The notes under the pieces: generated by a model
The model's database searches: none
What the model was told of the DNA's origin: nothing
What the model saw: the letters and a program-made list of their open reading frames with translations, nothing else
Made by a program: the position numbers and the translations under genes
Origin: Bacteroidota bacterium
GTDB taxonomy: Bacteria > Bacteroidota > Bacteroidia > Chitinophagales > Chitinophagaceae
DNA: 42,249 nt
Reading direction: 5' to 3'
NCBI GenBank assembly: GCA_003175695.1
Contig: PSRA01000230.1
Coordinates: 1-42,249, forward strand
Shown here: positions 1,711 to 41,690 of the stretch, piece after piece
Layout of the letters: every line of letters starts with the position of its first letter
Position numbering within the stretch: the stretch's first letter is position 1

Positions 1711-2192
1711 AGCGACGTGATCTTCTACTGGCCTCCACCGCCCTAGTGGCAGGCTGTGCCACACTATCGTCCCCCGGTGGGACGCCCACTGTGACGCAGG
1801 TTCAGAAGGATGCGACCCTCCTGAACAGTATTGTCAACCAGCTTCTGCCTCTGATCCCTCAGACCCTTGTATCGGCTGACACTATTCAGAAGATCCAGGG
1901 TATGTTGAATGCAGCAGCGAATGATGCCGTCGCACTGATGCAGGGCGCAACCTCTGGCAACACCGCTCTAGACATCTTCAACACAATGTCTACTGTGTTG
2001 CAGATAGTCTCGCCTTTCTTCCCACCGGCGGGCGGCGTCCTGACGGCAATCAACCTCGTCATAGCTCTGGCTCGAGGCGTAGCTTCCTTTCTAGGGGCAG
2101 CTCCTCCAGCACCAGCTCATGGCGCCGTTCTGAGCCCCGATGTGGCTCGTGAGATGCTCCAGCACATGCAGGCAGTCGGTGTCAGAACTTAA
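1707..2192 (+). CDS. Predicted lipoprotein
   Basis: This 161-residue protein has a basic N-terminus (KRRD), a short hydrophobic stretch and the lipobox VAGC with Cys17, so it is predicted to be exported and lipidated in a Gram-negative envelope. A second long hydrophobic region lies at about residues 95-132. Start ATG 1707 overlaps the previous stop (ATGA), with AGGAG upstream. The position just before terL is unusual for a lipoprotein. Possible roles are an outer-membrane spanin-like lysis protein or a superinfection-exclusion lipoprotein, but no motif decides between them. A copy of the 17-bp palindrome (1768-1784) lies inside the coding sequence. Confidence 0.7.
   Translation: MKRRDLLLASTALVAGCATLSSPGGTPTVTQVQKDATLLNSIVNQLLPLIPQTLVSADTIQKIQGMLNAAANDAVALMQGATSGNTALDIFNTMSTVLQIVSPFFPPAGGVLTAINLVIALARGVASFLGAAPPAPAHGAVLSPDVAREMLQHMQAVGVRT
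1768..1784. repeat. 17-bp palindrome, copy 1 (CGTCCC-CCGGT-GGGACG)
   Basis: Exact arms CGTCCC and GGGACG flank 5 bases. It is one of six copies in the window and lies inside the lipoprotein gene, where it encodes SSPGGT. Confidence 0.85.
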
Positions 2193-3696
2193 GATCCCCG
2201 ATAAGGCAACGGCCAAGGAACTTCTTGTTCTACGTGAGGAGCTCCTTGGTCGGCGCTTGAAGGATCCGCTGCGCAACTTCGTGCCCCATGCCAAACAAAG
2301 GGCATTCATAGATGCAACCCTTGAAGATAATTCGGGCGAAACCTGGTTTATCGCAGCTAACCGATCTGGTAAATCAGATGCTGGCGCTTATATCGGAGCA
2401 TCCCTCGCCCGATTTGGAAATCAAGGAGCTCGGTACGTCGGCGCCGCTGGATCTCGAGTACAAGTACGCGATACGGCTACGTCAGGGTGGGTTGTGGCTC
2501 TTGACTTTCCGTCCAGCCGAGACATCATTCAGCCCAAGTATTTTAACAATAACTTCGTTCCTCCAAACGCCACACACGAGCCCTTCATCCCCGATAGAGA
2601 AGTCGAAGAGTGGCGTGTTGGAGACCAAATTCTCAAGCTGAAGAACGGCTCGATTATTGGTTTCAAGTCATGCGAGTCGGGCGGAGGGAAGTTCCAAGGC
2701 GCAGGCAAGGAGTGGATTCACTTCGATGAAGAGCCTCCTGTCAATATCTACGAAGAGTGTTCCATACGAATTGAGGGTAATGTTAAACTCAGAATATTTG
2801 GAACTTGCACTATTCTGCCTCCCGAGGGGCAGGCCGGAGGCGTTAGTTGGTTATTCGAGAAGAAGATTGAACCCTGGCGGCGTGGAGAGGGCTCCGGAGT
2901 ACGGATTTTCGGCGCTTCTATTTACGACAATCCCCATGTACTTAAGAGTGAACTTGAGCGATTGGAAGGCATCTATCCCGAAGGGTCTATCGCCCGACGA
3001 ATTAGACTCAACGGTGAACTTCTTCCTGGACTCAGCGGAGCACGAGCTTATCCAGCTTACAATGGAGTCCTTAACATCCGTAAAGGCTTGGAGATTGACC
3101 CTCGACGACCGCTCTGCTGGGCGCTTGACTTCAATGTTGAACCAATGTGTAGCCTCATTGGTCAGAAGTTTGGAGCAGAATATCGTGTCTTCAAAGAGCT
3201 AGTTATAGATGAGGGCTCAGTCAGTGATATGTGTCAGTATTTCTACGACTACATACCGCATCACTTGTCAGAAGTGTGGGTATACGGCGACGCTACTTCA
3301 AAGCGACGGAGTGGACAAACTGGTCAATCTGATTATACAATTATCCAAAACGAAATGCGTGCCTATGGGTGCCCAATTAGAATTCGAGTTCCAGAGTCCA
3401 ACCCCCACGTCCCTGATCGTATCAATGCAGTTAATGTTGCGCTTAACTCTCGAGGAACTGTCAACCTCCTCATTGACCCAGGCTGTCGAGAGCTTATCTC
3501 AGATTTGGAGCAAGTACTCAGAGACGGCCGAGGCGGTATTAAAAAGACGAGCAACAAGAAGGACCCATACTTCAGACGAACCCACACATCAGATGCACTT
3601 GGATACTGGATATCCTATGAAAGTCCTGTTAGACTTTTAACCCTTCCTCAGGCAAAAGTAAGTGTACATATTCCCACGCCTTCATATGGCAATTAG
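2179..3696 (+). CDS. terL: Terminase large subunit (DNA packaging ATPase-nuclease)
   Basis: It powers genome packaging into the prohead and cuts the concatemer. From GTG 2179 it has 505 residues. The N-terminal ATPase shows a Walker A-like AANRSGKS (59-66) and Walker B WIHFDEE (Asp183, Glu184, Glu185). The C-terminal RNase H-like nuclease shows acidic residues in ALDFNVEP (Asp317), YGDATSKRR (Asp371) and SDALGYW (Asp472). The frame is open upstream to an ATG at 2140, but that lies deep inside the lipoprotein gene. GTG 2179, overlapping by 14 bases, is preferred although its ribosome site is weak. The portal follows after one small gene, the usual phage order. No small terminase is identified nearby. 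Confidence 0.95.
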   Translation: MSELKIPDKATAKELLVLREELLGRRLKDPLRNFVPHAKQRAFIDATLEDNSGETWFIAANRSGKSDAGAYIGASLARFGNQGARYVGAAGSRVQVRDTATSGWVVALDFPSSRDIIQPKYFNNNFVPPNATHEPFIPDREVEEWRVGDQILKLKNGSIIGFKSCESGGGKFQGAGKEWIHFDEEPPVNIYEECSIRIEGNVKLRIFGTCTILPPEGQAGGVSWLFEKKIEPWRRGEGSGVRIFGASIYDNPHVLKSELERLEGIYPEGSIARRIRLNGELLPGLSGARAYPAYNGVLNIRKGLEIDPRRPLCWALDFNVEPMCSLIGQKFGAEYRVFKELVIDEGSVSDMCQYFYDYIPHHLSEVWVYGDATSKRRSGQTGQSDYTIIQNEMRAYGCPIRIRVPESNPHVPDRINAVNVALNSRGTVNLLIDPGCRELISDLEQVLRDGRGGIKKTSNKKDPYFRRTHTSDALGYWISYESPVRLLTLPQAKVSVHIPTPSYGN

Positions 3697-3699
3697 GAA

Positions 3700-3903
3700 A
3701 TGGTGGGGAAGATTGACGCAGAAGAAAGAGCGCGTAAACTTGCCATCCTCAACAAAGATGTCAGGTTGTGCAACTTCTGCTCATATCCACTACTCAATCC
3801 GACGGAGAAGATGATTGGCCTGCACACGTGGTGCTTGGCAGATTCTAAGCGGAAGTTGAAAACGGCGGTTCAAGGACCGAGATATGGCAAAGTCGACGAG
3901 TAG
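3700..3903 (+). CDS. Small putative zinc-binding protein
   Basis: This 67-residue basic protein carries CNFC followed 19 residues later by HTWC, a CxxC...HxxC pattern that could bind one zinc ion. Start ATG 3700 follows the terL stop by 3 bases; the gene overlaps the portal gene by 20 bases. It lies between terL and portal, so a packaging-related role is possible, but nothing in the sequence shows it. Family not recognised. Confidence 0.65.
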   Translation: MVGKIDAEERARKLAILNKDVRLCNFCSYPLLNPTEKMIGLHTWCLADSKRKLKTAVQGPRYGKVDE

Positions 3904-9748: not shown

Positions 9749-10138
9749 ATGACCGCTATCGCAGCAGCCAACGTTACGGTTACGACCGTTCAGAGTGCGC
9801 CCTCGGCAAGAGGCGGTCAGCGTATGTTTGAGGAGTCGCGGAAGAACAACCTCGTCAAGATCGTGTTTGGCGATGGTTCTCTTACGTATCCCACCGGAGG
9901 TATTCCGATGCCTGCCATCGGTAACTTCGGTATGAGGCGATTCCTCGAATATATCTCGATCCTCTCTGACAACCTCGACGCGTTCATCTACAAGTGGGAT
10001 TTTCCGAACCAGAAGATTCGGATTTACTATCCCACTCAGCAGACTGGTGGTGCAGGCAATAGAGCGGGCGTCGAGTTTGGCGTCTCCGATGTGCCTGCGC
10101 TGAATACAACCCTATATGCGGAGGCAGTCGGGTGGTAG
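9749..10138 (+). CDS. Hypothetical virion protein
   Basis: This 129-residue protein has the segments FGDGSLTYPTGGIPMP and YKWDFPNQKIRIYYP, a pattern I associate with small phage proteins encoded next to capsid genes. It is predicted beta-rich. GGAGG at 9740-9744 precedes ATG 9749. It overlaps the next gene by 7 bases. Likely a head or neck component by context; exact role unknown. Confidence 0.65.
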   Translation: MTAIAAANVTVTTVQSAPSARGGQRMFEESRKNNLVKIVFGDGSLTYPTGGIPMPAIGNFGMRRFLEYISILSDNLDAFIYKWDFPNQKIRIYYPTQQTGGAGNRAGVEFGVSDVPALNTTLYAEAVGW

Positions 10139-10461
10139 GAAAGCTGAACCTTCGGGGCGTTCACGCTTACGAGAAGGTCCCAGGTGCTGCTGGTATGGTT
10201 CGCCTTACTGGCACACATCACTATGTACGCGTCGTCAACGAAGGCTGTCCCCCTCTTTATATCCAGGATGGAGTTATCTATCCAGAAGACGGGCCTGCCA
10301 TCGACGTAGAGGACGCCCCGGACTGGTTCTGGCAGCAAGTGTCTCTGTTGACAGCGGAGGCACTTGCTGCCGTCGGCTTCTCTATTCCCGACGATCGAAA
10401 AGTGGTCGTCCCCCCGAGGGACGATACTAGAGGCGCCCGCCCCAGGGCTCGGAGACAATAG
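10132..10461 (+). CDS. Hypothetical protein, possible neck component
   Basis: This 109-residue protein starts at GTG 10132 inside the end of the previous gene. It has a compact N-terminal domain (VHAYEKVPGAAGMVR, DWFWQQVSLL) and a basic, disordered C-terminus (PPRDDTRGARPRARRQ). The position suits a head-completion or neck protein. A copy of the 17-bp palindrome (10407-10423) lies within the part encoding the C-terminal tail. No family recognised. Confidence 0.6.
   Translation: MVGKLNLRGVHAYEKVPGAAGMVRLTGTHHYVRVVNEGCPPLYIQDGVIYPEDGPAIDVEDAPDWFWQQVSLLTAEALAAVGFSIPDDRKVVVPPRDDTRGARPRARRQ
10407..10423. repeat. 17-bp palindrome, copy 2 (CGTCCC-CCCGA-GGGACG)
   Basis: Exact arms CGTCCC and GGGACG. 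The codon phase differs from copy 1 (here encoding VPPRD), so conservation is not at protein level. Confidence 0.85.
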
Positions 10462-19791: not shown

Positions 19792-20707
19792 TCAGGCCAA
19801 GCTGCTCGCTGAGCAGACCAAGATCCTGACGCAGCAATTCCAGCAGGAACAGCTTCTTGCGCCTTTTATTTATCAATCCCTGGGACTGACACCCACCCTC
19901 AATGCGAAGGGAGTCATTACAGGGTTCACGCAAGATCCCAACTTCGCCGCCCTACAGAAGCAGATGCCGGAGTTGCAGCTCGAGCTAGCTAAATCGGGCA
20001 TCACCAACGCCGAGCAGCAGAACAAGATGGAAGCTCAGTTCATGGATATCCAGCAGCAACAGCTGGCTTTCCAGAAGCAGCTTCAGCCGCTCTATCAGGG
20101 GATGTTGACAGAGCAGTTTGGATTGACATCTGAGCTCTTCAATCGTGAACAGCAGGCGCTGGAAGGCAAACTTCCAGTTGACCCTGGCCTCATTACATCT
20201 CTAAATGAGCAGCAGGCTCAGACTGAAGAGGGGCTGCGCAACAACCTGGGTCCGGGCTGGGCCACTTCTACTCCAGCCATCCAGGCTATGTCCAAGTTCA
20301 ACCTCAATAAACAGAACATTCTCGAGTCGGCACGTCGAGGTGATCTGTCTATGGCTGAACAGCTTGGTCTCGCGATGAACCCGAGTCAGTTCTTTGGCTC
20401 TCCAAGTGCTGGCTCTTTCGGAGGTATGTATGGCGCACCTAACTTCGCAGGCCAAGCCGGAGGTATTCCAGGCCAGATCGCTGGGCAGTTTGGCACACTC
20501 TTCGGAAACGCTGCGCAGGGATACAACGCCCCGCTGCAGTACTGGCAGAACCTTCAGGGCATGGGTCTGCAAGCGAACATGGCGAATGCGCAGAATTCTC
20601 TCGGCGTACTTGGGGCTCTGGGCGGAGGCATCGGACAACTAGCAGGCATGGGCGCATATGGCGCCTTGTTCGGTAGTCCCATCACTGGCGGAGGGTTGTT
20701 CGGATAA
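19730..20707 (+). CDS. Ejection (internal virion) protein candidate 1
   Basis: This 325-residue protein is rich in Gln, Ala, Leu and Gly. Residues 1-150 are long Gln-rich helices (KLLAEQTKILTQQFQQEQ), and the end is a Gly/Ala-rich, apolar region (LGVLGALGGGIGQLAGMGAY) that could insert in membranes. Being first of three consecutive large genes after the tail genes matches the internal virion protein set of podoviruses, which is ejected into the cell to form a DNA channel. The start ATG lies 62 bases inside the previous gene. Confidence 0.65.
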   Translation: MGAPSVSVPPPTPQQNQDVNNQAKLLAEQTKILTQQFQQEQLLAPFIYQSLGLTPTLNAKGVITGFTQDPNFAALQKQMPELQLELAKSGITNAEQQNKMEAQFMDIQQQQLAFQKQLQPLYQGMLTEQFGLTSELFNREQQALEGKLPVDPGLITSLNEQQAQTEEGLRNNLGPGWATSTPAIQAMSKFNLNKQNILESARRGDLSMAEQLGLAMNPSQFFGSPSAGSFGGMYGAPNFAGQAGGIPGQIAGQFGTLFGNAAQGYNAPLQYWQNLQGMGLQANMANAQNSLGVLGALGGGIGQLAGMGAYGALFGSPITGGGLFG

Positions 20708-22719
20708 TGGCTATCGGAGGTATGGCATTTGCCGGGGGCTTTGCTTCCGGCCTAGCAGGTGGAGCGCAGACAGCTCAGACGATGGGTATGCGCGCCTCGA
20801 TGATGAAGCTCGAGCAGCAGAGGGCCAACCTCGAGGCCAATACTGCTCTGGCTAATGTCATGCGTATCCCTGTGCCGGCCCTTCGACAGCTTGCTGTCCA
20901 AAACCTAATGCCATCGCTTCGTATAGATCCGAAGAGCCCAACTGGCAAGACTTTGATTGATGTGGCGAAGAATGGAGATCCTGCCACCACTGGTGTCTTT
21001 GCAGATATGTTTGCTAAGATGGGCATGCATATCTCGCCTGAGATGCTAGTGAATATGACTAGCACACCTGAGGGGATGAATCAACTTACAGGTATGCTTG
21101 TTAACGTGGGCATGGGCAATCAGGCTATGGGGCTGATCCAGAATGTCCTAAGTGGTGGACAGGCTGGAGGGACAGACCAGGGACAAGCTTCAACCACTGA
21201 TGTTTCGGGCCAAGGTGCGTCCCCCGGAGGGACGGCTTCTGGGACGGAACAGACAAGTGGTGGAGGGGCGGCAGAGGATACTGGCGGGCAGCCTCCCCCC
21301 GTTGAGTCCTCTGCTCAACCCACCGCCGGTGGTGGAATGCCAACAGGGGGCGGACAAGCACAGCAGACTGCGGCCCCCTCACAGCAGCAGGCTGCGCCCC
21401 GCCCCCTGGCTTCTGCGGGTATCCCTACACAGCCGGTACCAGGCCTTACGCTACAAGCCCATCTATCGGAAGGCATCCCCCTGCCAATCCAACCAGCTGT
21501 GCAAGGGTTCCAGAGTAAGATCCAAGCTCTCAATATGGCGCAGGCTTCCTATCCGGCGATGAAGGATAGATTGCAGCCTACAATCGACGAGCTTGTACGT
21601 CAGAGGGATATGCTGGTCAACAACTACTTCAAGTCCGTAACTGCAAGTCAGGAGCAGCAGCGCATCGGAATTGAAGGTGGGCGCCTTGCCGTCGCGCAGG
21701 GTGAACTAAATCTCGGCAAGCAGCGCCTCGCTTGGGAGATTAACAAGCCTGAGAGCCCGGCTGGTCAGCTTATCCATGATCTGAACATGGGCACTCTTAA
21801 TCTATCTGGTTCCTCAGGCATAGAGGGCGGGGCCACACCTACTGCTGGTGGCGGTCAGCCTCAGACTGCGCAGGCAGGTGGAGCCGCCCCTCTCCAGCTT
21901 AACCAGGGCGAGATGGATATCACGGGCAGTCTTCCGAATGACGCAGCAAAGAATGCTGTTCTGAAAGCCTTGGGTGCTCCAGCAGGTGCTCATATCATTC
22001 AGCTTCCTGGTGGTCAGGGCCTCGCCTATCGTATGCCTACCGCTACGTCTGTTGGTGAGAACCAGGCTTCTGAATCTCAGATTGCTCTCAACGGTGTTAC
22101 ACAAGTCAGATCTGTTATCCAGCAGGCTATCACGGCGATCCAAAAGGATCCAGCCTCTGTCGGTCTGACTGGTGATGCTCGAGGGATTGCACAGACTGCC
22201 TTCACACAGGGCCTCGACCTTGCGACCCTGGTGCCCGGGCTGAAGAATGCTCTCGGTGGCTTGAAGGATGCCTTGCCCAAAGGCTATCTCGATTACGATC
22301 CCAACATCCCGCAGCTCCAGCAGGCGGAGCATTTCATCGCTGCAACGATCGCCAAGGAGATGGCTCCTTCTGGCACGACTATTGGTGGCTTTGGTGAGCT
22401 GTTGAAGAAGGCTGAGAAGATGGTCAGCTTCACAGATGAAAGCTCGACCGACGCTGTTACGAAGTTGCAGCAGCTGGATGGATGGCTCGCCACTCGACAA
22501 GATGCCTACAAGAGCCAGATCGGCCAAGGCGGGCAAGCAGGTATTAGTGGACCTGGATCTGGAACTGGTTCCTCAACCACTCAACCTGCTTCGGAAACCA
22601 AAGGCATGCCTCGTTGGGCCAAGGGTGATAAGGTCACCAACGAGAAGGGTGAGACCCTCTATTATCAGGGCGATGGATCTGCAAAGGGTAAAGCATGGCT
22701 GCCAACCCCGCCCCAGTAG
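20707..22719 (+). CDS. Ejection (internal virion) protein candidate 2
   Basis: This 670-residue protein starts in the preceding stop (TAATG). It has a Gly/Ala-rich N-terminus (AFAGGFASGLAGGAQTAQT), a helical region, then a long low-complexity linker rich in Gly, Gln, Pro, Ser and Thr (about residues 145-245), and a helical C-terminal half (about 400-620). The position between two similar proteins and the helical makeup suit an ejection channel component. No lytic transglycosylase motif was found. It carries the third 17-bp palindrome (21218-21234). Confidence 0.65.
   Translation: MAIGGMAFAGGFASGLAGGAQTAQTMGMRASMMKLEQQRANLEANTALANVMRIPVPALRQLAVQNLMPSLRIDPKSPTGKTLIDVAKNGDPATTGVFADMFAKMGMHISPEMLVNMTSTPEGMNQLTGMLVNVGMGNQAMGLIQNVLSGGQAGGTDQGQASTTDVSGQGASPGGTASGTEQTSGGGAAEDTGGQPPPVESSAQPTAGGGMPTGGGQAQQTAAPSQQQAAPRPLASAGIPTQPVPGLTLQAHLSEGIPLPIQPAVQGFQSKIQALNMAQASYPAMKDRLQPTIDELVRQRDMLVNNYFKSVTASQEQQRIGIEGGRLAVAQGELNLGKQRLAWEINKPESPAGQLIHDLNMGTLNLSGSSGIEGGATPTAGGGQPQTAQAGGAAPLQLNQGEMDITGSLPNDAAKNAVLKALGAPAGAHIIQLPGGQGLAYRMPTATSVGENQASESQIALNGVTQVRSVIQQAITAIQKDPASVGLTGDARGIAQTAFTQGLDLATLVPGLKNALGGLKDALPKGYLDYDPNIPQLQQAEHFIAATIAKEMAPSGTTIGGFGELLKKAEKMVSFTDESSTDAVTKLQQLDGWLATRQDAYKSQIGQGGQAGISGPGSGTGSSTTQPASETKGMPRWAKGDKVTNEKGETLYYQGDGSAKGKAWLPTPPQ
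21218..21234. repeat. 17-bp palindrome, copy 3 (CGTCCC-CCGGA-GGGACG)
   Basis: Exact arms CGTCCC and GGGACG in the low-complexity linker region of the 670-residue protein, encoding ASPGGT. Confidence 0.85.
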
Positions 22720-26612: not shown

Positions 26613-27527
26613 TCATCCGGCTTTTTGCATCTCGATTGCATGTAAACCATCCCATGCTTCTTCAAGTTTCCACCCCAAAGCATCTGGATCTTTGAACCCA
26701 GCTAGCTTAACTTCCGACATGCGCCCCCAATTAGGGCCTAGCTTCATATCAGTCTTCACGGTAAATTCACGACTCCCATACCGACAAGTAGGAGACATCC
26801 AGCTATCGACAGACATACAAACAGAAGCAAGGCGAACCCACCCAGCATGATTATTGGGAAGTTCAGTTTGTGCCAATATAGAGTCATGAACTTGAGCCTT
26901 CGGAACCGTGTATCTAAAGCCATCAATCTCCTCCTCGTACAGCCTTCGTAGGGCCCTGTTGACCATATCCACAACTGTTGACTGAGGCTTGAAAGCGTAG
27001 CCAGCCTTGAACAGATGTGGACCCCAAGTGTCTCTTAGGACGACCTTCCGCCCGAAGCAGTTCGTAAGAGTACGATCGCGTTTGAGTTCGCGGCGAATAG
27101 ACTCGTGCCATACAGATATGCTAGGATAAGCTTTCTCGTGGTAAAAATCCACAATACGTTTGGCTTCGGACTCATCCATTTCGTTATAGAGGGCAAATAC
27201 TCTATAGGTTTCTCCATAATTGAGAGCATGATTGCTCTTCTTCCCAGCCTGATATACAGACATTGTCCGGGGTAGGAAATACCCTCCCGTCGAAAGGTCA
27301 GGAATACTCTGCCGGAGTTCTTCGATCTCGACAGGATTACGTAGCTCACCGATAAGTTCCTTCTCTGCTAGGATAAGGTTGTCAGGGACGCCAAAGATTA
27401 GATTGCCTGTCACAACGTGGGGCTTCTTGCCATTCTCCACTACGTCCAACATGCGGGCGTCCCCAGAAAGATAGGCGACGACTACCCACTCGGCACCTGC
27501 CTTATCGAAGTTGAGGAAGATCTTCAT
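26613..27527 (-). CDS. Family A DNA polymerase, palm/fingers subunit (C-terminal part)
   Basis: This 304-residue protein is the catalytic core of a family A DNA polymerase. It begins just before motif A, NFDKAGAEW (Asp8, Glu13). The O-helix follows, AGKKSNHALNYG (Lys96, Tyr104, Gly105), although the usual Arg four residues before the Lys appears to be absent. Next come LTNCFGRKVVL and PQSTVVDMVN, and motif C, VHDSIL (His214, Asp215, Ser216), where the normal Glu of HDE is Ser. The missing thumb and exonuclease are in the gene at 28264-29904. ATG 27527 overlaps the preceding gene (ATGA), so this is a clean gene start. Confidence 0.88.
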   Translation of the reverse strand: MKIFLNFDKAGAEWVVVAYLSGDARMLDVVENGKKPHVVTGNLIFGVPDNLILAEKELIGELRNPVEIEELRQSIPDLSTGGYFLPRTMSVYQAGKKSNHALNYGETYRVFALYNEMDESEAKRIVDFYHEKAYPSISVWHESIRRELKRDRTLTNCFGRKVVLRDTWGPHLFKAGYAFKPQSTVVDMVNRALRRLYEEEIDGFRYTVPKAQVHDSILAQTELPNNHAGWVRLASVCMSVDSWMSPTCRYGSREFTVKTDMKLGPNWGRMSEVKLAGFKDPDALGWKLEEAWDGLHAIEMQKAG

Positions 27528-27958
27528 CCTAGAACCTTGACAAGATTTTCGATTGTCGTGACTATACTATTAGCAAAGAGGTACATAAGTTCTGGCTCAA
27601 AGCCTTGTTCACGCAAGAGAATAAAAAGTTCCTTGCCTTTTCCTCTTGCATAGCCGGCTTCGAGATGTGCACTACGTCCACATGGAAGTAACAAGACACA
27701 CGTATCGCACCAGTCGAGGCCAGCCTTATCGTAGCCAAATCCCCTTTGTGCTATTGGATCACTGAGAGCAAATGTATACTCAGCAGGGGTCCACTCTTTA
27801 TAATTTTTGCTAACGTCAGTCCATCGAAAGCCGTTGTTGGTAGCAGAAGGATGACGGAAGTCATACACCTCATGATTTTCTTCACGAAGTATATTGACCA
27901 GAAGAGGCTGTTCTTCGTTCTTCCAGGACGTGGCGAGGTATATCTTGCGTTTCATCAC
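27524..27958 (-). CDS. Nucleoside 2-deoxyribosyltransferase-like protein
   Basis: This 144-residue protein has KIYLATSW at the N-terminus, then LDWCDTCVLLLPCGRSAHLE followed by AGYARGKGK. This is the pattern of the nucleoside deoxyribosyltransferase / deoxynucleotide N-hydrolase superfamily, with Glu100 as probable nucleophile and Asp82/Asp85 nearby. Such enzymes exchange or remove bases on deoxynucleosides and could serve nucleotide salvage or host-DNA turnover. It sits between the two halves of the DNA polymerase, overlapping neighbours by 4 bases on both sides. The substrate cannot be read from the sequence. Confidence 0.75.
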   Translation of the reverse strand: MMKRKIYLATSWKNEEQPLLVNILREENHEVYDFRHPSATNNGFRWTDVSKNYKEWTPAEYTFALSDPIAQRGFGYDKAGLDWCDTCVLLLPCGRSAHLEAGYARGKGKELFILLREQGFEPELMYLFANSIVTTIENLVKVLG

Positions 27959-28254
27959 GCATCCTCCTGCTTGACATGTTCATAGCACCAGCTATCTCCC
28001 ACGATGGTTGGAAAGCCACAGAGGATCTGACTTGTCATCTGCGTGCCAACCTGGGGCGGCTGCTTCATGCCATGTTCGAACTGAAGCTTGCTCTCATAGA
28101 CATGCTGGATGTTGATCAGCTGGGTGATTGGCTTCACTGGATACAACCGACACTCTCCGATTGGCTTCCCATTCTGCATCATACCAGGAACCTTGACCCA
28201 CAGCTGACAGTTGTGGCACCGATCTGTCTCTTTATTGAAAGGCCGAACGCGCAT
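27955..28254 (-). CDS. Cysteine-rich small protein
   Basis: This 99-residue protein has CHNCQLW (13-19), GECRLYP and a late CGFPTIVGDSWCYEH. This spacing of C-x2-C...C...C...C is common in small phage proteins thought to bind zinc. It starts 9 bases after the end of the UDG-exonuclease gene, using the TAGGAGG made by that stop codon as ribosome site, and overlaps the next gene by 4 bases. The function is unknown. It is one of two genes lying between the polymerase halves. Confidence 0.65.
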   Translation of the reverse strand: MRVRPFNKETDRCHNCQLWVKVPGMMQNGKPIGECRLYPVKPITQLINIQHVYESKLQFEHGMKQPPQVGTQMTSQILCGFPTIVGDSWCYEHVKQEDA

Positions 28255-28263
28255 AGTTACCTC

Positions 28264-29904
28264 CTAGTCGTCAGGAACAATAAACTCCTTAAATGAAGGA
28301 TCTAAGTTTTGCATGTTAAGTCCGGTCTGGAAGATAGTCTCAGAACTGCTAAGGCGCCCGGTCCAGGTCCCTCGAGGATTATATGCAGTTCTAAGTCTCC
28401 CGTCTGGGTCTGTTTCCACGTCAAGATAGCTCGATTTGAGTTTATTAAGTGTCCTAACCTTTTGGATAAGAAGGAGTTCGGGCCATCTATACCTTCTAAT
28501 AAGGCGAGCAAGTGCCAGATCATCAGTTGTGACTTTTCCCGTTTTAGGCGAGATATATGCATGTGCCCCTTTGTGGCCATAAATGTACTGCGCAACCTGC
28601 TTTGGCGAGAGGGCATTGATCGGGTAGTCGGCTGTTTTGTTAAGATCTTCAATGGCTGCATTGAGCTGACTTTCTATGTCCTTCCTTGTCTGCTGTAATA
28701 GCTTATGATTTACCTTAAGACCATCAACCATCATATACAGCAGAGCAGGATATAAAGCTGTTGTTTCATCATGCGTCTGACGGTATCCTTTGTCAAGCTC
28801 TTCCTGCATGTTGAGCCAACTTTCAAGTGAAACAACAGAATCCTTGGCGTTATATATCCAGAAGCTATCCATGTCGCGAAAGGGCTTCTTCCAGATCTTG
28901 CCATCGTCTTTGTAGTAGGGCCATCTTGTATAGATAGAACAAATAGTGCCTAGGTCCTTTTTGAAATCGATATACATAAGGTTAAAAGCGACCATAGTGT
29001 CATAGTATGGTCCTGCGACAAAGATGTTATTCCTATACAATAGCATGAATAGGTCGAAGAGAATGTTTTGATTGACCTTGGGGATCGGTAGTGCCAAGAG
29101 GCTAGCAATAGCCAGCCAAACTTCCAGCTCCTCAAGTTCTGTAAAGTAGTGATTTCCTGTGCGCCCAACGAAAGGTATAGATATAGCCTCCCCAATCTCA
29201 TATGCGAATGATATCGCCGAGATTTGGCCGTGATAAACTTCCACGTCAAAGTTGAGAATTTTTGCATTTTGCTTCGCTTTCTCAATCCAAGCGAGTGTCT
29301 CATGAAAGCCTGGCTCGATGATGAAGTTTGCCTGGGGCAGGGAGAGGATTGGAGATTTACTCTCCTCCTTGATCCTCTCCATGTCGTTGACAATCAGATA
29401 TCTCCAAACATAGTTGCCACGCAAGACCGCTGCAGGATGGATAGTTGGTACAACTTTCCGACCTGGAACAAGGTCGCAGGTTAGGATCGAGCCGCGCCAC
29501 TTCATGATCTTTGGCAACCCACAAAGGGCATCGGATGCAACTCCGCCGAGAGGACATATAACGTTGGCCTTGCATTTCTCTAGCCTTTCAGTCAGACGTT
29601 GTACGCTGAGTTGACCTTCCTCCGTAAATCCGCCAGTTGCCGTCCAAAGGAGTTCTCCGCCATCTTTCTTATATATGCGAACTTGTGAGGACTTCTCATC
29701 CTTGTAGACAGGAAACTCAAATACGTTAGTGATATAGCACTCTCGTCGGATAATGCCAGCTGTGTGTAGGCACTCCTCAAACACCATTCCAGCGGGTCCG
29801 ACAAAAGGTCTACCCAACCGAAGCTCGACATTAGATGGAGCCTCGCCGACGAAACATATACGGCTATTAATGTCGCCTTCTTCATAGGGCGTACTCCTTC
29901 TCAT
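28264..29904 (-). CDS. UDG-like domain fused to 3'-5' exonuclease and PolA thumb (N-terminal polymerase part)
   Basis: This 546-residue protein has three parts. Residues 1-170 look like a family 4-type uracil-DNA glycosylase: GEAPSNVELRLGRPFVGPAG (20-39), CYITNVFEFP, and TIHPAAVLRG (His156, Pro157), but the N-terminal Fe-S cysteines of family 4 are absent. Residues 215-360 are a DnaQ/PolA proofreading exonuclease: FDVE (Asp220, Glu222), ILFD (Asp284), YNAKD (Tyr351, Asp355). The remainder is the polymerase thumb, ending with TGRLSS (515-520), NMQNL and IVPDD, exactly where motif A should follow. Motif A begins in the gene at 26613-27527. The two proteins presumably assemble into one polymerase. 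Confidence 0.85.
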   Translation of the reverse strand: MRRSTPYEEGDINSRICFVGEAPSNVELRLGRPFVGPAGMVFEECLHTAGIIRRECYITNVFEFPVYKDEKSSQVRIYKKDGGELLWTATGGFTEEGQLSVQRLTERLEKCKANVICPLGGVASDALCGLPKIMKWRGSILTCDLVPGRKVVPTIHPAAVLRGNYVWRYLIVNDMERIKEESKSPILSLPQANFIIEPGFHETLAWIEKAKQNAKILNFDVEVYHGQISAISFAYEIGEAISIPFVGRTGNHYFTELEELEVWLAIASLLALPIPKVNQNILFDLFMLLYRNNIFVAGPYYDTMVAFNLMYIDFKKDLGTICSIYTRWPYYKDDGKIWKKPFRDMDSFWIYNAKDSVVSLESWLNMQEELDKGYRQTHDETTALYPALLYMMVDGLKVNHKLLQQTRKDIESQLNAAIEDLNKTADYPINALSPKQVAQYIYGHKGAHAYISPKTGKVTTDDLALARLIRRYRWPELLLIQKVRTLNKLKSSYLDVETDPDGRLRTAYNPRGTWTGRLSSSETIFQTGLNMQNLDPSFKEFIVPDD

Positions 29905-30122
29905 TGGACAGGTCCCATAGGGATTGTTACAGTTGGAACTCCCGCCTGGGGCGCATCGTTGCTGTTGCGTTCATAGATCACAGAAATAGGAAACTGTGAA
30001 TTGGCCGCTGTGTCAGATGCGATCTGAATAACTCGCCAGCCCTGCGCCCCGGCGGCGGTCATCGAGACCGTGGCCTGCATGATGTCTGTGTATTGCTGCA
30101 TCAGGTATTCATACGTCGCCAT
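29901..30122 (-). CDS. Small protein, DUF4177-like
   Basis: This 73-residue protein starts at ATG 30122, preceded by AGGAGGA; the frame is open further upstream, but that part lies inside the ParB-methyltransferase gene. The pattern ATYEYLMQQY...AAGAQGWRVIQIA resembles DUF4177, a small domain with a GW(E/R)-V core. It overlaps the UDG-exonuclease gene by 4 bases. A role with the replication proteins is inferred only from position. Confidence 0.6.
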   Translation of the reverse strand: MATYEYLMQQYTDIMQATVSMTAAGAQGWRVIQIASDTAANSQFPISVIYERNSNDAPQAGVPTVTIPMGPVQ

Positions 30123-31410
30123 CTTCGTCCTCCTGTTCTTCAGATACATCATCTCCAGCTTCCTCTTTTCGATCGTTGACAACTCGAGTGAGGAAGCGAT
30201 GCTTGACGGTATCATCAAGATCCCACCCATAACCAACCATGTGCTCCTTGTAAGCGGCCCTTAGGATTGATCCACTACCAAGGAAAGGGGAGCAGATGAC
30301 CGATCCGGGCCAGGCAAATGTTCGCAGCAACTCGACCATAAGCTCGACAGGTCTTTCAGTGGGATGTATCTTTTTGGCAGGTGCGAGGGGCGCAAAGTCA
30401 AAGACATTTGAACGTCCAGGCTTGCGAAGTTTGGGCATACCCTTACGGCAAAGAAAGAAGGGTTCGTAAGAAGAGGCAAGCATGGTATCGGGAGAGGATG
30501 TTTGTCCGCTTTGACCCTTATACCAGATACAGGGAATAGAACCCACTGTGAAACCAACATCCTCAAGGGTTTCCTGGACGATAGCAGACCAGTCCGGAGC
30601 ATACCACCATACGCAGAAAGTGTTGTTGCGGAGCTTATGGTAAACAAGACGGGCCATGTCCCTGACAAAGTGCTCATAGTCTTCCTCTGATACTTCCCGG
30701 TAGCGTTTGGCGTTGTTTACCTGATTGCGAGCCTTGCGCTTTTCAAGTTCGATCGCGTAGGGCGGATCGACCTCGGCGAAGTTAAGGACGCCATCGTTCA
30801 CTTCTGATAGACCCTGAAAGGCGTCGCCTATCTTGTAATGATTATTTGCGGCTTTAGAGGCATCAGCGTACTTACCTTCAGCGGCTGACGCCAGAGCCAT
30901 ACGAACTGTCTCTTCTTTGACCGCAGAAAGAGCCCGCCATGCTTGCTTCTGTGTCGGTATCTCTGCCAGGCCGGGGACAAGATCCAGCGATTGAGCAAGC
31001 TCGATACGCCGATGGACTTCCGACTTGGACATGTCACTAAGAGCGGCCTGCTGCGATAGCGACCAGTCCGGGTCCTTGGCTTTGTGTAGATCAAAAAGAC
31101 GGCGTTCCAAGTTCGCCCGTTCCTGCCACGAGAAGTCGAGACGATGAATATTCTCGAAAAGTTCAATTTCGAGTGCATCTATTTCTCCCGTGACGGGACG
31201 TATAACTGCAGGGATTGTCTTCAAGCCGGCGAGCTTCGCCGCTTCGTAGCGGCGCTGCCCGGCTATGAGATTGAGATCTAGATCAAGCGTTATAGGCTGG
31301 ATGATGCCATATTGCTTGACGCCTTCAACCATCTCCGAGAGGTCGCCAAGACCTTTGCGGAAACGGTTCCCTATTTTTATCTCGGATAGGGGAACCTCAC
31401 GAGCCTTCAC
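30109..31410 (-). CDS. ParB-domain / DNA methyltransferase fusion
   Basis: This 433-residue protein starts with a ParB/Srx-type domain (IKIGNRFRKGLGDL, then IAGQRRYEAAK at 49-59, equivalent to the GERRxRA nucleotide-binding motif). A ParB/KorB-like helix-turn-helix follows (SLSQQAALSDMSKSEVHRR, 117-135). From about 205 it is an amino-methyltransferase with DPPY (215-218) before FLGSG (376-380), the order of beta-class N6-adenine or N4-cytosine enzymes. ParB-methyltransferase fusions are known in phages. It may methylate phage DNA and bind specific sites. Start GTG 31410 has AAGG unusually close. The acidic C-terminus (EEQEDEDGD) is probably disordered. Confidence 0.85.
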   Translation of the reverse strand: MKAREVPLSEIKIGNRFRKGLGDLSEMVEGVKQYGIIQPITLDLDLNLIAGQRRYEAAKLAGLKTIPAVIRPVTGEIDALEIELFENIHRLDFSWQERANLERRLFDLHKAKDPDWSLSQQAALSDMSKSEVHRRIELAQSLDLVPGLAEIPTQKQAWRALSAVKEETVRMALASAAEGKYADASKAANNHYKIGDAFQGLSEVNDGVLNFAEVDPPYAIELEKRKARNQVNNAKRYREVSEEDYEHFVRDMARLVYHKLRNNTFCVWWYAPDWSAIVQETLEDVGFTVGSIPCIWYKGQSGQTSSPDTMLASSYEPFFLCRKGMPKLRKPGRSNVFDFAPLAPAKKIHPTERPVELMVELLRTFAWPGSVICSPFLGSGSILRAAYKEHMVGYGWDLDDTVKHRFLTRVVNDRKEEAGDDVSEEQEDEDGDV

Positions 31411-31764: not shown

Positions 31765-32043
31765 TTAGTCCGTTGTCTCCTCACTATCCGTACGTTGAAC
31801 ACCTTTTCCCGCTCCCGTAGTTGGCGTCCCACTGTGGGACGGCTTCTTGTGTGTGTATTCCAAGGTGTATTGTCCAGAAAGGATAGCCCCGATAACGATA
31901 TCGCCTTCCTTGTCGATTGCATCCATCAACTTTTCTAGGAATAGGCGAATCAGGGTAGGTAGGAACCCCCAGGGGATGCGTATTTTCATTCTTTCCGCTA
32001 GTTCAACAGGCACTTGAAAGATGATACGCTTTGTAGAAGTCAT
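31765..32043 (-). CDS. Small RHH-like or hypothetical DNA-binding protein
   Basis: This 92-residue protein has IIFQVPVELAERMKIRIPWG then PTLIRLFLEKLMDAI, like a beta strand followed by two helices in ribbon-helix-helix proteins. The C-terminal third is polar and Thr/Gly-rich, probably disordered. ATG 32043 follows CAGGG. A copy of the 17-bp palindrome (31825-31841) lies in its coding sequence. The DNA-binding role is inferred from the local pattern; no family match can be claimed. Confidence 0.55.
   Translation of the reverse strand: MTSTKRIIFQVPVELAERMKIRIPWGFLPTLIRLFLEKLMDAIDKEGDIVIGAILSGQYTLEYTHKKPSHSGTPTTGAGKGVQRTDSEETTD
31825..31841. repeat. 17-bp palindrome, copy 4 (CGTCCC-ACTGT-GGGACG)
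   Basis: Exact arms CGTCCC and GGGACG inside the 92-residue gene on the minus strand, encoding PSHSGT. The inner bases extend the symmetry to GTCCCAC-T-GTGGGAC. Confidence 0.85.
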
Positions 32044-35287: not shown

Positions 35288-35991
35288 CCGCCGTTCTGGG
35301 TGGTGCCATAACTTGAACCAGGCAGCACACTGTTGGCACCACGTCCAGTGGCCACCCCGCCCCCATTGTGGGCGTCGAACTTTCTTCCATAGACAACCCC
35401 CTGATATGTGGGCTGTATCACTTGTATGACTGCATTCTCACTGGCCTGCATAAATGCGTTGGAGAAAGAGGGCGAGTGGCTAGTCACAACACCTGCATAT
35501 CCGAGGAATAGACCTCCCAAAGATGCAGCTACATGTGCCCTTCCACCTCCTATGATGTCATAGTTGCTAGAACATACAACAGTTGCGCATGTATCCACAT
35601 CTATGTGATAATCCGCAGTACGCCCAAAGCGATTGCTGAATAGTTGAACATAAGATGCCCTGGAAATATGTAGACAGTCCAGAGTACCGCCCCAGAATTC
35701 GATCCCTCCAATCTCCATGCGAGCCATATTCACCTCGAGCAGGTGCCACGCAGATGCATCAGGCTTCCATACTGTGGCACCCTGCCCAATGATACGAACA
35801 GTACCGCCTCCGACGAATGGTCCATTTACTCGGACACATTCGTTGTATGCGCTATTTGTAAGATTGAGCGTAACGTTGAAGCCGGACATGTCCACAGTAT
35901 TCTTGACATAATCTAAGGCATATCCGATCGAAGGAAAGCCTCCAACTCCCACTATGTATTGTGTATCACTTACGAGAGTAGAGCGGCTCAT
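35275..35991 (-). CDS. Beta-helix protein, tailspike-like
   Basis: This 238-residue protein has the start of a right-handed beta-helix: a helix GYALDYVKNTVDMSG then repeating strands FNVTLNLTN, GGGTVRIIGQG, MEIGGIEFWGG, VQLFSNRFG. The C-terminus is Gly/Ser-rich. Such folds occur in tailspikes and polysaccharide lyases of phages. It lies on the early strand, 4 bases after the lysozyme gene, away from the tail genes. GAGGTGA precedes ATG 35991. It may be a host-glycan-directed enzyme or a small appendage protein; no catalytic residues can be assigned. Confidence 0.65.
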   Translation of the reverse strand: MSRSTLVSDTQYIVGVGGFPSIGYALDYVKNTVDMSGFNVTLNLTNSAYNECVRVNGPFVGGGTVRIIGQGATVWKPDASAWHLLEVNMARMEIGGIEFWGGTLDCLHISRASYVQLFSNRFGRTADYHIDVDTCATVVCSSNYDIIGGGRAHVAASLGGLFLGYAGVVTSHSPSFSNAFMQASENAVIQVIQPTYQGVVYGRKFDAHNGGGVATGRGANSVLPGSSYGTTQNGGWST

Positions 35992-35995
35992 TTTG

Positions 35996-36472
35996 TCACC
36001 TCATGGATTTATAGTAAAGGGCAAGTTCACGCTTCCTTCTGGCTAGTAATGCGGGACTATGATACATATGCCCGTTAACATCCGTCTCACAGTTCCATGC
36101 CTCCCACGCTGGCATGATCCGATCAGCATCTTCGGGTGGGCGAAGTACCCTACATACAGTCGAGGTAGCGAAGGCTTCTGTTCCGATGTTGAAGATCAAC
36201 GAGACAACGGCATCATACTCGTTCTGTGCCATCGTCCGCCAGGGTGTAATATTGACCGAGATACACATCTCACAATGCCTTACGTCATCTCGAAGCCATT
36301 CGAGAGCCTGAGCTATTGTGATCTGTGGGAACTGTGTAAGAGGAACATACTTCACATGCGTAAGAAGATGTCCTACACCCTGCGTAGCATATCCTTCATT
36401 ATCATAGTAGGCTATAAGATTGAAGCCTTCCTGATCCATAAGGAACTTTAGACCACTGTCACTTGTTTGCAT
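35996..36472 (-). CDS. Lysozyme (T4-type, GH24 endolysin)
   Basis: This 158-residue muramidase cuts the peptidoglycan glycan chain to lyse the host. The T4-type triad has exact spacing: Glu15 (QEGF), Asp24 (YYDNEG) and Thr30 (ATQGVGH), that is E-x8-D-x5-T, with Gly-His following. No signal peptide or SAR-type anchor is present, so it needs a holin. AGGAGAAGAACA precedes ATG 36472. It is followed by the beta-helix gene and two small envelope genes on the same strand. Confidence 0.92.
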   Translation of the reverse strand: MQTSDSGLKFLMDQEGFNLIAYYDNEGYATQGVGHLLTHVKYVPLTQFPQITIAQALEWLRDDVRHCEMCISVNITPWRTMAQNEYDAVVSLIFNIGTEAFATSTVCRVLRPPEDADRIMPAWEAWNCETDVNGHMYHSPALLARRKRELALYYKSMR

Positions 36473-37172: not shown

Positions 37173-37249
37173 CTCTTCCTCCATTCAGATACAAGGATCC
37201 AAAAGACACACCCTATACCGAGTGTGTCTATGATGAGCATCCAGATCAT
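37169..37249 (-). CDS. 26-residue membrane micro-protein
   Basis: The ORF has 26 residues, an apolar helix (IWMLIIDTLGIGCVFWILV) and a short basic end (SEWRKR), a typical topology with the tail in the cytoplasm. ATG 37249 overlaps the stop of the HTH gene (ATGA), and its own stop overlaps the start of the next gene, so it is translationally coupled on both sides. The role is unknown. Being real is supported by coupling and composition only. Confidence 0.45.
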   Translation of the reverse strand: MIWMLIIDTLGIGCVFWILVSEWRKR

Positions 37250-37566
37250 GGGAATCCAATCACCTGCGTCGTGATCCCCATAGCCTTGCAGAATGCAAGA
37301 AGAGATGTTACACTCTGCTTGCGGACGAGGACAAGATAGCAGGCAATCTCATCTGTCTCGCGCCTCTCGAGCCTATTAAGAGCCGTAATAGCTATTTCTA
37401 CACTGAGAGGCATATCGTCCTTGGCAAGCCATCCTCGAATGCCACTATCTGTGACACCGAGGTTGTCTGCTGCCTCTCTAATTGAGAGTTTGTGCTGCTC
37501 GATATAGGCACGAAGAAGACCAGAGCCTGTACGCTTGAATACGTGCTTCTTACGCTCTTCGGACAT
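37246..37566 (-). CDS. Helix-turn-helix regulator
   Basis: From ATG 37566 (AAAGGAACAAGAAG upstream) this is a 106-residue protein. The open frame extends upstream through an unrelated overlapping gene, so the longer start is rejected. The HTH is LSIREAADNLGVTDSGIRGW (about 27-46). The C-terminal part is apolar and helical (VTSLLAFCKAMG). It may be a transcription regulator of the early genes; the target is unknown. Confidence 0.7.
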   Translation of the reverse strand: MSEERKKHVFKRTGSGLLRAYIEQHKLSIREAADNLGVTDSGIRGWLAKDDMPLSVEIAITALNRLERRETDEIACYLVLVRKQSVTSLLAFCKAMGITTQVIGFP

Positions 37567-37771: not shown

Positions 37772-37803
37772 TCTATTACCTCTTATTGCTGGTTGCTAGT
37801 AAT

Positions 37804-37820
37804 CGTCCCACGGTGGGACG
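37804..37820. repeat. 17-bp palindrome, copy 5 (CGTCCC-ACGGT-GGGACG)
   Basis: Exact arms CGTCCC and GGGACG, with full symmetry GTCCCAC-G-GTGGGAC. It is the only copy between genes, directly after the stop codon of the 91-residue gene and 33 bases before the next start. Confidence 0.85.
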
Positions 37821-37821
37821 G

Positions 37822-38097
37822 CTACTCGGGGGCTATTTCCTCCTTTCCTTCATTGATCTCAGTTATGTCATCTTCATGAGCTCGAAGACCTTGCTCGTAT
37901 CCTGCATGAAAAGACTCATTGCGAATGTCCCAGATGAAGGACATAAGAGCCTCTTGGTCTTCCGCCCTGATATCGAGTCCAAGATCTTTGAACTTGGTGA
38001 ACACGTCACTCTCAAACTCTTCCTTGGCCATGTCTTCAAGGGTATTGCCAGGGATATCACTGACGGATACGCCGGGCGGTAGGTTGTCGTTGCTCAT
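37822..38097 (-). CDS. Hypothetical acidic protein
   Basis: This 91-residue protein is acidic (MAKEEFESDVFTKFKDLG, GLRAHEDDITEINEGKEE), probably helical. AGGAGATAG precedes ATG 38097. It begins 3 bases after the winged-helix-like gene. No family recognised; an early acidic protein of this kind could be a host-takeover factor, which is speculation. Confidence 0.65.
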   Translation of the reverse strand: MSNDNLPPGVSVSDIPGNTLEDMAKEEFESDVFTKFKDLGLDIRAEDQEALMSFIWDIRNESFHAGYEQGLRAHEDDITEINEGKEEIAPE

Positions 38098-38100
38098 ATT

Positions 38101-38951: not shown

Positions 38952-38965
38952 CTTGTTCCTCCATG

Positions 38966-39317: not shown

Positions 39318-39322
39318 GCCTG

Positions 39323-39526: not shown

Positions 39527-39532
39527 TCAAAT

Positions 39533-39602: not shown

Positions 39603-39663
39603 CCCAGCTATGACACGCCCCACTGCCTTTGTGATCTCAAAGGCGAATGGCTTTGCACATAGC

Positions 39664-40071: not shown

Positions 40072-40115
40072 TTGATGCCTCCTTAGTGGCATGATGTTAA
40101 ATATGACGGTCCAAC

Positions 40116-40145
40116 ATCATATGGGCATAGTCGCGGGCGTGTCAA
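40116..40145 (-). promoter_or_regulatory. Sigma70-type promoter
   Basis: TTGACA (40145-40140) and TATGAT (40121-40116) are 18 bases apart on the minus strand. The start site would be near 40109, in front of the AAGGAGG of the 135-residue gene. Confidence 0.7.
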
Positions 40146-40468: not shown

Positions 40469-40607
40469 TTCTCGCTCCTGTTGGGACGATTTCAAGGAAT
40501 GTACCAGATATCTCTCTCAGATGGGGCAAGATTGCCCTTCGAAGCATACTACCAACAGCCCCATCTGACACAGCATGAAGGGTGCTCAATGTAATAGTGA
40601 AGCTCAC
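40452..40607 (-). CDS. Hypothetical small protein
   Basis: From GTG 40607 this is a 51-residue protein: AAGGCGGCAA is its ribosome site, and GTGA overlaps the stop of the HTH gene. An upstream in-frame ATG at 40634 has no good site. The sequence is SFTITLSTLHAVSDG then MLRRAILPHLREISG. No family recognised. Confidence 0.5.
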   Translation of the reverse strand: MSFTITLSTLHAVSDGAVGSMLRRAILPHLREISGTFLEIVPTGARNARPD

Positions 40608-40891
40608 TTGCCGCCTTGTAACAGTCGGTTCCATTGCTGCTCTACCTTGTCAAGTTTGGGAATACGAGGACCTTGTGGAACGCCCTTGGGCCAGCCACGG
40701 CGGGCGGTCTTGGGAACCAAATTCCATACTCTCAACATATTACACATATGGTTATATGTGACGCCGAAATACCATGCCAGTTCTGGCTTGGTAAGCCCAT
40801 TAGATATAAGCCATCTTGCTTCGGCCTCTTTATCCTTGAGTGGAATGCGATCAGACTTCCAATAATACCTATTGCTGTTCACTCTCACCAT
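40604..40891 (-). CDS. Helix-turn-helix protein
   Basis: From ATG 40891 (AGGAGCACCTTG upstream) this is a 95-residue basic protein. The HTH is LTKPELAWYFGVTYNHMCNM, typical of resolvase- or sigma-like recognition units in small phage regulators. The C-terminus is Lys/Gly/Pro-rich. It overlaps the preceding gene by 23 bases, so it is co-expressed. It may control early or late promoters; the target is unknown. Confidence 0.65.
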   Translation of the reverse strand: MVRVNSNRYYWKSDRIPLKDKEAEARWLISNGLTKPELAWYFGVTYNHMCNMLRVWNLVPKTARRGWPKGVPQGPRIPKLDKVEQQWNRLLQGGK

Positions 40892-41690
40892 CAAGGTGCT
40901 CCTTTATCATCTCGAGGCCCGCAAGCGCCGCTTGTCTGCGCACATCGTGTTCATTCTCTGCAATCTCTTTCAAAAAGTCAACCATGGCCTTTTGGACATC
41001 TGGATTTGCAATGATAAAGTGATCTATATTGAACCGCCCTTTGATGAATATCTTCCACTGTTTACCAGCATCGTCAGGTAGATCAGATGTATTGTCTGGA
41101 TGATGCTCCCAGTCAAGCTTCTCATTCTCCTCAGATTGCCGCACCATCTCGGCATATCGGGCAAGCATCTTCTGATGCTCCTCATCCTCATGTTGATCAC
41201 GAAGCCTTATTTGAAATCGATAGGCTTTTTCAATAGCTGCCTGTATGTCATATCCAGATGCTAGCATCTCTTCGTAGTCAAGCATGTCCATGTGGGGCGG
41301 GCGACCAGCACGATCCCATTCAATTGCCAATCTATGACGCTCATGGTGCCACTCTGAAACCCTATCGTAGATTTCGTCCCGCTGTGGGACGCCAACTGGA
41401 GGGTTCATCGCATAGCGTAGCGACCTAGGTGTAGATCCTTTATTCGCAAACTGCGTATACTTATGCTGTCTTAATTGTTCATAAAGCTCTCGATCACGCC
41501 CGGCTGGCATTGGTCCACTATCACCATTAGGCCATAGTGCATCTGGATACAATCGTCCTTGCCTTACCTTATAGACAACGCCTGTAGATACGTGGAATTT
41601 AATAGAAATCTCAAATACAGGCACACCCCGCCACATCATATCCTTCATCTCAGTTGCATCCAATAACTTTATAACCGATTTACCTGCCAT
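40869..41690 (-). CDS. Early protein with N-terminal HTH
   Basis: From ATG 41690 (GGAGGCAATC upstream) this is a 273-residue protein, the first of the minus operon behind the strong promoter. The N-terminus is HTH-like (MMWRGVPVFEISIKFHVSTG, VVYKVRQGRLYPD). The rest is charged and helical, ending with AGLEMIKEHLDGESEQQ. It may be a regulator of the phage cycle or a terminase-like DNA-recognition protein; HTH plus long helical tail fits both. A copy of the 17-bp palindrome (41375-41391) lies in the gene. Confidence 0.6.
   Translation of the reverse strand: MAGKSVIKLLDATEMKDMMWRGVPVFEISIKFHVSTGVVYKVRQGRLYPDALWPNGDSGPMPAGRDRELYEQLRQHKYTQFANKGSTPRSLRYAMNPPVGVPQRDEIYDRVSEWHHERHRLAIEWDRAGRPPHMDMLDYEEMLASGYDIQAAIEKAYRFQIRLRDQHEDEEHQKMLARYAEMVRQSEENEKLDWEHHPDNTSDLPDDAGKQWKIFIKGRFNIDHFIIANPDVQKAMVDFLKEIAENEHDVRRQAALAGLEMIKEHLDGESEQQ
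41375..41391. repeat. 17-bp palindrome, copy 6 (CGTCCC-GCTGT-GGGACG)
   Basis: Exact arms CGTCCC and GGGACG inside the first early gene, in a third context (minus strand, encoding VPQRDE). Confidence 0.85.

Follow-up and report, generated by a model that had tools for sequence, protein, structure and literature searches.

Dispersed dyads in a Chitinophagaceae-associated phage contig as probable parS-like sites of its ParB–methyltransferase

What reads a short palindrome that a phage genome repeats, letter for letter, at six distant places? Contig PSRA01000230.1 of the Bacteroidota assembly GCA_003175695.1, analysed here over its whole length of 42,249 nucleotides (the window), carries six exact copies of the 17-bp dyad CGTCCCNCNGNGGGACG, starting at positions 1768, 10407, 21218, 31825, 37804 and 41375, with zero mismatches among them. 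In 100 dinucleotide shuffles of the window the expected number of copies is 0. An earlier examination of the letters alone (the sequence-only reading) had placed six copies at these positions, five of them inside genes in at least two codon phases, and our own gene model bears this out: five copies lie within predicted genes, in two codon phases, and a 50-bp intergenic gap holds the one at 37804. The same reading held that the copies are conserved at the DNA level and resemble parS-like sites rather than promoter operators, and this too is supported by what follows. We propose that the ParB–methyltransferase fusion encoded by the phage itself binds, and loads at, the six dyads, and we regard this as the probable answer. 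The support from sequence consists of the extent of the element, which reaches 29 bp, the association of such sites with ParB–methyltransferase phages, the covariation of recognition helix and arms, the even spacing of the sites, and the intact motifs of both domains of the fusion (GxRR and ENxxR, DPPY and PFLGSG).

The element is longer than the 17 bp first described. It is a 29-bp dyad comprised of the odd-centred 17-bp core plus outer triplets, and the half-site GGGACGnnnWCT is exact in 9 of the 12 halves, the outer WCT triplet likewise being present on 9 of 12 half-sites, while 0.02 matches to this pattern are expected at up to one mismatch. With up to three mismatches allowed, there is one extra match beyond the six copies against 1.68 expected, so the dyad has no tail of degenerate copies. 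The second site gives some indication of how this copy arose. A related locus (L139) encodes the same peptide there, VVVPPR, and two others (L121 and L122) encode VVVPAR; the window codons GTC GTC CCC CCG AGG correspond to GTT GTT CCA CCC CGG in L139, with five synonymous differences; the final bases of the site fall in the two codons that follow, and these differ from L139 by amino-acid changes. Relative to all three loci there is no insertion, only substitutions, and therefore this site was built by point changes. This, together with the absence of expected copies and the two codon phases, makes it scarcely credible that the dyad is a mobile mini-palindrome or an artefact of chance or codon usage, even if its confinement to one lineage and its occurrence in different genes would fit such an origin.

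The exact sequence is private to the window phage. In the whole assembly (4,576,422 bases in 275 contigs), all six copies are on the window contig, and the count against related genomes that the sequence-only reading had recommended gave zero copies in the other 97 of the 98 related bacterial genomes searched, a control pattern (the dyad read backwards) being present in 4 of those 97. The nearest phages by capsid comprise 72 loci, the closest of which (L117) is 90% identical; the exact dyad was found neither in these capsid loci nor in any of 30 records of capsid relatives. Elsewhere, the exact core occurs in 112 viral stretches, in one copy each except for L009 with two, and an AGT or ACT outer triplet accompanies it in 3 of the 112, about the chance level; the extended pattern occurs in 29 genome stretches, again in one copy each. 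The search for identical sites elsewhere was set aside. Absence from all close relatives had been named beforehand as an outcome that would speak against the sites, and for the exact sequence this is what we found. That test is drawn too narrowly: the sequence is specific to the phage, but sites of this class are found again in phages that encode the same ParB–methyltransferase.

The candidate binder is a fusion of 433 amino acids (Table 1). Its N-terminal part scores 51.7 bits against PF02195 (cut-off 26.3), and G51 R53 R54 and E86 N87 R90 are invariant both in 8 and in 23 aligned sequences; a ParB N-terminal domain with nucleotide-binding motifs is recognised on these grounds. A structure model (pLDDT 82, pTM 0.54) has a ParB-type N-terminal part and a helix-turn-helix (HTH) at residues 118-125 and 129-144. 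The modelled C-terminal part resembles CcrM and RsrI by sequence and fold, and is predicted to be a beta-class N6/N4 DNA methyltransferase, with DPPY and FxGxG motifs in beta order and a matching fold. The best 50 Foldseek matches of the model are all methyltransferases, the matches to ParB and Noc coming from the sequence search. The recognition helix starts with the triplet SKS, and by our own motif reading its middle residue corresponds to ParB residue 173, which swaps between ParB and Noc have identified as a specificity residue (PMC7383237). The best match among named phages is the protein of Desulfofustis phage LS06-2018-MD01, with 37% identity.

We applied a uniform dyad test, with 60 dinucleotide shuffles per contig, to 41 contigs with a ParB–methyltransferase gene and to 14 related contigs without it. 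The former included the window, the Desulfofustis phage, G465, seven capsid relatives and 31 records, mostly the longer ones, from 80 ParB–methyltransferase loci obtained by an alignment-based scan. A dyad family beating all 60 shuffles was found in 23 of the 41 contigs and in 1 of the 14. Scores of at least 8, a threshold chosen after seeing the data, were reached by 16/41 contigs with the gene, 0/14 relatives without it and 0/34 other viral stretches (maximum 7.68). These control stretches were shorter (12-15 kb), were picked for holding the window core motif and were not checked for the gene; six of them beat all 40 shuffles, all with a GC content of 0.61-0.72 and scores of at most 7.68. 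Many ParB–methyltransferase loci have dispersed dyads of their own with different arms, for example TGTTCAAANTTTGAACA, TGATCAAANTTTGATCA, TGGCCCANNNTGGGCCA and TGTAACAANTTGTTACA. In the Desulfofustis phage there are six exact and three near GTCCC-N5-GGGAC dyads over 44 kb, and beyond the 17-bp core their flanks are conserved in part (TAGCAA); contig G483 has ten GTCCC-N5-GGGAC dyads. The Desulfofustis phage is linked to the window by genes of replication: polymerase, primase, Sak4-type ATPase and exonuclease-type proteins are common to the two, and it has no match to the window terminase, portal or capsid at E 0.01. Thus, this class of site appears often to recur in phages carrying the same ParB–methyltransferase, each with its own arm sequence.

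Not all positive contigs are equally convincing. The families in G448, G454, G488 and G491 are doubtful, as is the CGGCC family of G481, which is clustered and probably does not represent sites; it is still counted in the 23/41, in the 16/41 and among the 21 families considered below. The sole positive contig without the gene, G441 (L240-L241, 20.9 kb), has three odd-centred TGATCG-N5-CGATCA-like dyads (arms TGATC, gap 7) at record positions 3803, 9448 and 12816, and a ParB–methyltransferase gene, while not detected, may fall beyond the contig ends. G453 (L204-L206), a capsid relative in which no ParB–methyltransferase was detected, carries four dispersed palindromes CGTTTAAACG at record positions 12061, 22653, 30527 and 33951; they are even-centred and were set aside. 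Four copies of GAAGATCTTC in G458 were taken as codon-driven and likewise set aside. Burkholderia phage KS5 scores 8.97, a value reached by 5 of 60 shuffles, and two Gordonia phages with ParB-like proteins and GC-rich arms, Opie (6.6, 1/60 shuffles) and Meyran (7.27, 0/60), were counted neither way.

The arms were also compared with the recognition helix of the fusion. The window, the Desulfofustis phage and G483 all have the helix triplet SKS and GGGAC arms (GTCCC-N5-GGGAC), with the latter two proteins 37% and 40% identical to that of the window; G467, at 51% identity, has the triplet SVG and GAAC arms. Among 21 curated families, triplets of the form xxG go with GAA in 7/7 cases, and GAA is found in 0/14 others. 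The partial Mantel test of arm similarity against the helix triplet, with overall identity removed, gives p 0.036 for 24 families, 0.021 for the 21 curated ones and 0.041 after dropping one near-duplicate, and the +5..+7 Mantel test, made post hoc, gives p 0.0023. Left out of the curated set were G448, G454 and G488, as low-complexity or degenerate, and G491, with its HTH cut off, was left out of both sets. Overall protein identity is a poor predictor of the arms (r -0.02 to 0.12). Other recurrent combinations are the triplet SQP with ATCAAANTTTGAT in G475, G444 and L318, and the triplet AQS in L290, L291 and L348, which have one GATC dyad each and may be close kin of G473. A held-out sample of 42 other loci, many of them short and with no site seen, has a readable helix in 40 and yielded only two GTCCC-N5-GGGAC dyads, in L330 (SKS) and L301 (PKS). 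Taken together, the arms tend, imperfectly, to vary with the first residues of the ParB recognition helix and not with the overall similarity of the proteins. On a tree from which the HTH region was excluded, the pairs for [KR]S and GG are concordant or without difference and never discordant, being too few for significance.

Several observations weigh against the assignment of the dyads to the fusion. No set beating all shuffles was found in 18 of the 41 contigs with the gene, including five of the seven capsid relatives of the window; the two that did beat the shuffles are G448 and G454, with their doubtful families, and the distant ParB–methyltransferase phages Mel-JY34 and Javan639 have no dyad set. 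The helix and trait classes were defined post hoc, with the data already seen. On the same tree, xxG and GAA give 4/4 concordant independent pairs, a number that cannot reach 0.05. The xxG–GAA rule is broken by three SKG contigs, G466 and G469 with G-rich arms and G488 with another dyad family, and no GTCCC dyad is present in L311 and L354, two held-out loci with SKS. Moreover, similar dyads occur without the protein. A reverse scan for GTCCCAANTTGGGAC gave at least 23 multi-site loci; among the matches listed, at least 19 have a C/G centre and at least 4 an A/T centre, and ParB_N is above the cut-off in 3 of 48 records searched. Among the multi-site records listed, ParB_N was found only in G483 and G504, both with an A/T centre (the ParB of G504 is cut off before the HTH). 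G498 (L556-L558) has 13 GTCCCAASTTGGGAC dyads at 10.6-28.3 kb of 47 kb and G499 (L559-L561) has 11 at 17.0-26.1 kb of 55 kb, both with a C/G centre and neither with ParB_N. Hence the dyad alone is not proof of a ParB–methyltransferase. Both records were read whole, and their arrays are confined to one part of the genome; they perhaps represent an operator family.

The window sites are more evenly spread than expected by chance. In the window, a site is no more than 5 kb away for 97% of the genome, compared with a random mean of 77% (p 0.021; this single radius was tried, and was chosen after seeing the data). Over 21 families, the combined evenness has p 2.2e-6, with a median spacing of 6.0 kb (106 spacings), G481 being clustered instead. 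This is compatible with the following scheme. A dimer of the fusion would contact both arms through its HTH helices, in a manner close to that of ParB at parS, the sites being placed so that nearly the whole genome falls within about 5 kb of one. The fusion would load at the sites, probably as a nucleotide (CTP) clamp, and could then move onto flanking DNA, bringing the methyltransferase to phage DNA in cis, so that phage rather than host DNA would be marked or coated.

An alternative is that the fusion binds the sites as a local switch, methylating an outer A[CG]T of each, with no spreading. It draws on the outer elements: A[CG]T is found at +11..+13 in 49 of 241 half-sites of 20 other families, against a background of 1 to 13 of 241 at starts +13 to +15 or +16 and beyond, and in the window at +11 or +12 in 8 of 12 half-sites. 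A conserved portion of the protein may read part of the site, and one might guess that this portion is the methyltransferase domain. A local switch has no need of the even genome tiling, and we consider it unlikely.

Loading at parS-like sites does not imply partition here, since no ParA was found. The ParA-type ATPase family PF13614 is present in 0/24 ParB–methyltransferase records, as is the tyrosine integrase family PF00589 (0/24), and neither ParA nor integrase was found in the Pfam scans of window proteins, which covered selected proteins rather than every predicted gene. On this evidence the window sites do not appear to belong to a ParABS partition system; we file them with the ParB–parS kind, as sites that would work like parS in loading, outside partition systems. 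Phage N15 has a few dispersed centromere dyads read by a ParB-type protein, and also ParA and a plasmid prophage. A few dispersed phage dyads and a ParB-type reader are thus common to N15 and the window, and one could suppose that the window sites serve the partition of a plasmid prophage in the same manner. With PF13614 lacking from the records and from the scanned window proteins, and with the C-terminal part of ParB replaced by a methyltransferase, we hold this to be very improbable.

The binder suspected first was another protein, the small HTH protein encoded at 37246-37566 on the minus strand, which matches HTH_3. With this protein, or the one encoded at 40869-41690 (minus strand; DNA-binding-like by eye only), the sites would be operators or stoperators, and the bound repressor would block transcription at each. 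The fifth site lies 238 bp upstream of the 37246-37566 gene, and both proteins are as private to the window phage as the exact motif: neither has relatives in the phage and viral-contig collections searched. Both were set aside as candidate binders, there being no relatives to compare; the single-sequence structure model of the HTH_3 protein is poor (pLDDT 52). The same site class is present in phages whose HTH content differs, when they carry the ParB–methyltransferase, two of them sharing the GTCCC arms, and the HTH_3 protein has no tblastn match where this was tested, in the Desulfofustis phage genome, despite the GTCCC arms there. In addition, the window sites are symmetric and away from promoters. 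We therefore consider this explanation improbable. Stoperators of Cluster A mycobacteriophages are likewise short and scattered along a phage genome; unlike the window sites, they are asymmetric, aligned with the direction of transcription and recognised by an immunity repressor (PMC4351075). Given dyad sites, no PF00589 in the 24 records and one small HTH_3 protein in the window, the sites do not seem to belong to a stoperator–immunity-repressor system. Thus, where the sequence-only reading had offered parS-like or stoperator-like sites, the former has gained support and the latter has found none in its favour.

With the ParB–parS and Noc–NBS systems (PMC7383237), the proposed pairing of dyads and fusion shares GxRR and ENxxR in an N domain of ParB type, a putative HTH reader, a dyad of similar size, and, by motif, the specificity residue. 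The window differs in its odd-centred 17-bp core with outer triplets, in a methyltransferase in place of the dimerisation domain, and in its many evenly spread phage sites with no ParA found. Fusions of a ParB fold with an N6_N4 methyltransferase are a reported architecture, enriched in phages and prophages (PMC12704722), and the window protein has the same domain architecture. The string "palindrom" does not occur in the main text of that paper, and its available passages describe no binding sites; our proposal adds cognate dispersed sites. In the open-licence PMC literature we found no paper linking phage ParB–methyltransferases to such sites.

The claim of the sequence-only reading that no phage site with this sequence has been described fits the same literature, while a parallel has been described. 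The repeats TGTTCGGNNNCCGAACA of Corndogvirus (Cluster O) are 17-bp odd-centred dyads with invariant arms, found in and between genes and with no assigned function; Corndog has 34 copies, denser at one end and absent from Mycobacterium smegmatis, and encodes a ParB-like protein (PMC4351075). The window shares the dispersed 17-bp odd-centred dyads, their absence from the host and a ParB-like protein, and differs in having six evenly spread copies. The ParB-like protein of Corndogvirus is a candidate binder of the Cluster O repeats. Its homologue in Familton (gp91, L426, 5136-6644, minus strand; 502 aa) matches ParB_N only, with no methyltransferase family match.

If the assignment is right, the dyads are a candidate DNA address for phage ParB–methyltransferase fusions. 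The helix–site pairs would form a natural series extending the ParB/Noc specificity code, and a testable explanation is suggested for the unexplained Corndogvirus repeats. Were methylation delivered in cis, the whole viral genome could be marked and host DNA left untouched. As a tentative generalisation, to which we give rather less than even chances, phages may widely practise self-addressed modification, in which a CTP clamp–methyltransferase loads at tiling parS-like sites, slides and methylates only DNA in cis, site and helix changing together so that each phage has its own self-mark.

Table 1. Positions in the window of the six dyads and of the parts of the proposed binder
Feature	Position	Strand	Evidence and context
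Site 1	1762..1790, core 1768-1784	none	Exact core, right outer ACT, flanks; near start of gene 1707-2192
Site 2	10401..10429, core 10407-10423	none	Near 3' end of gene 10132-10461
Site 3	21212..21240, core 21218-21234	none	Within G/S/T-rich linker of gene 20707-22719
Site 4	31819..31847, core 31825-31841	none	Near 3' end of gene 31765-32043
Site 5	37798..37826, core 37804-37820	none	Intergenic; ACT at both outer triplets
Site 6	41369..41397, core 41375-41391	none	Within gene 40869-41690
ParB–methyltransferase fusion, 433 aa, proposed binder	30109..31410	-	PF02195, PF01555, PHROG matches; structure model, pLDDT 82
ParB N-terminal (CTPase-type) domain, residues 23-89	31144..31344	-	PF02195; GxRR and ENxxR motifs; invariant columns; matches to solved ParB and Noc
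S-K-S, residues 128-130, start of HTH recognition helix	31021..31029	-	Middle residue matched by motif with ParB residue 173
Predicted methyltransferase domain, residues 212-397	30220..30777	-	PF01555; DPPY and PFLGSG motifs; CcrM and RsrI matches

A few other features of the window and its relatives were noted. The family A DNA polymerase is encoded at 26613-29904 on the minus strand in two open reading frames (ORFs), 28264-29904 and 26613-27527. Between them lie a small ORF and the gene of a nucleoside deoxyribosyltransferase (27524-27955), and in the relatives G457 and G445 the parts of the polymerase likewise match separately. G463 (L210-L211) has about 15 head-to-tail 18-bp repeats around GCATCGAAGCGGG at 35874-36138. 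In the closest relative, a small ORF between two head genes (L117:7964-8473, plus strand) has, by eye only, a homing-endonuclease-like start, LAWLAGIMDGEG.

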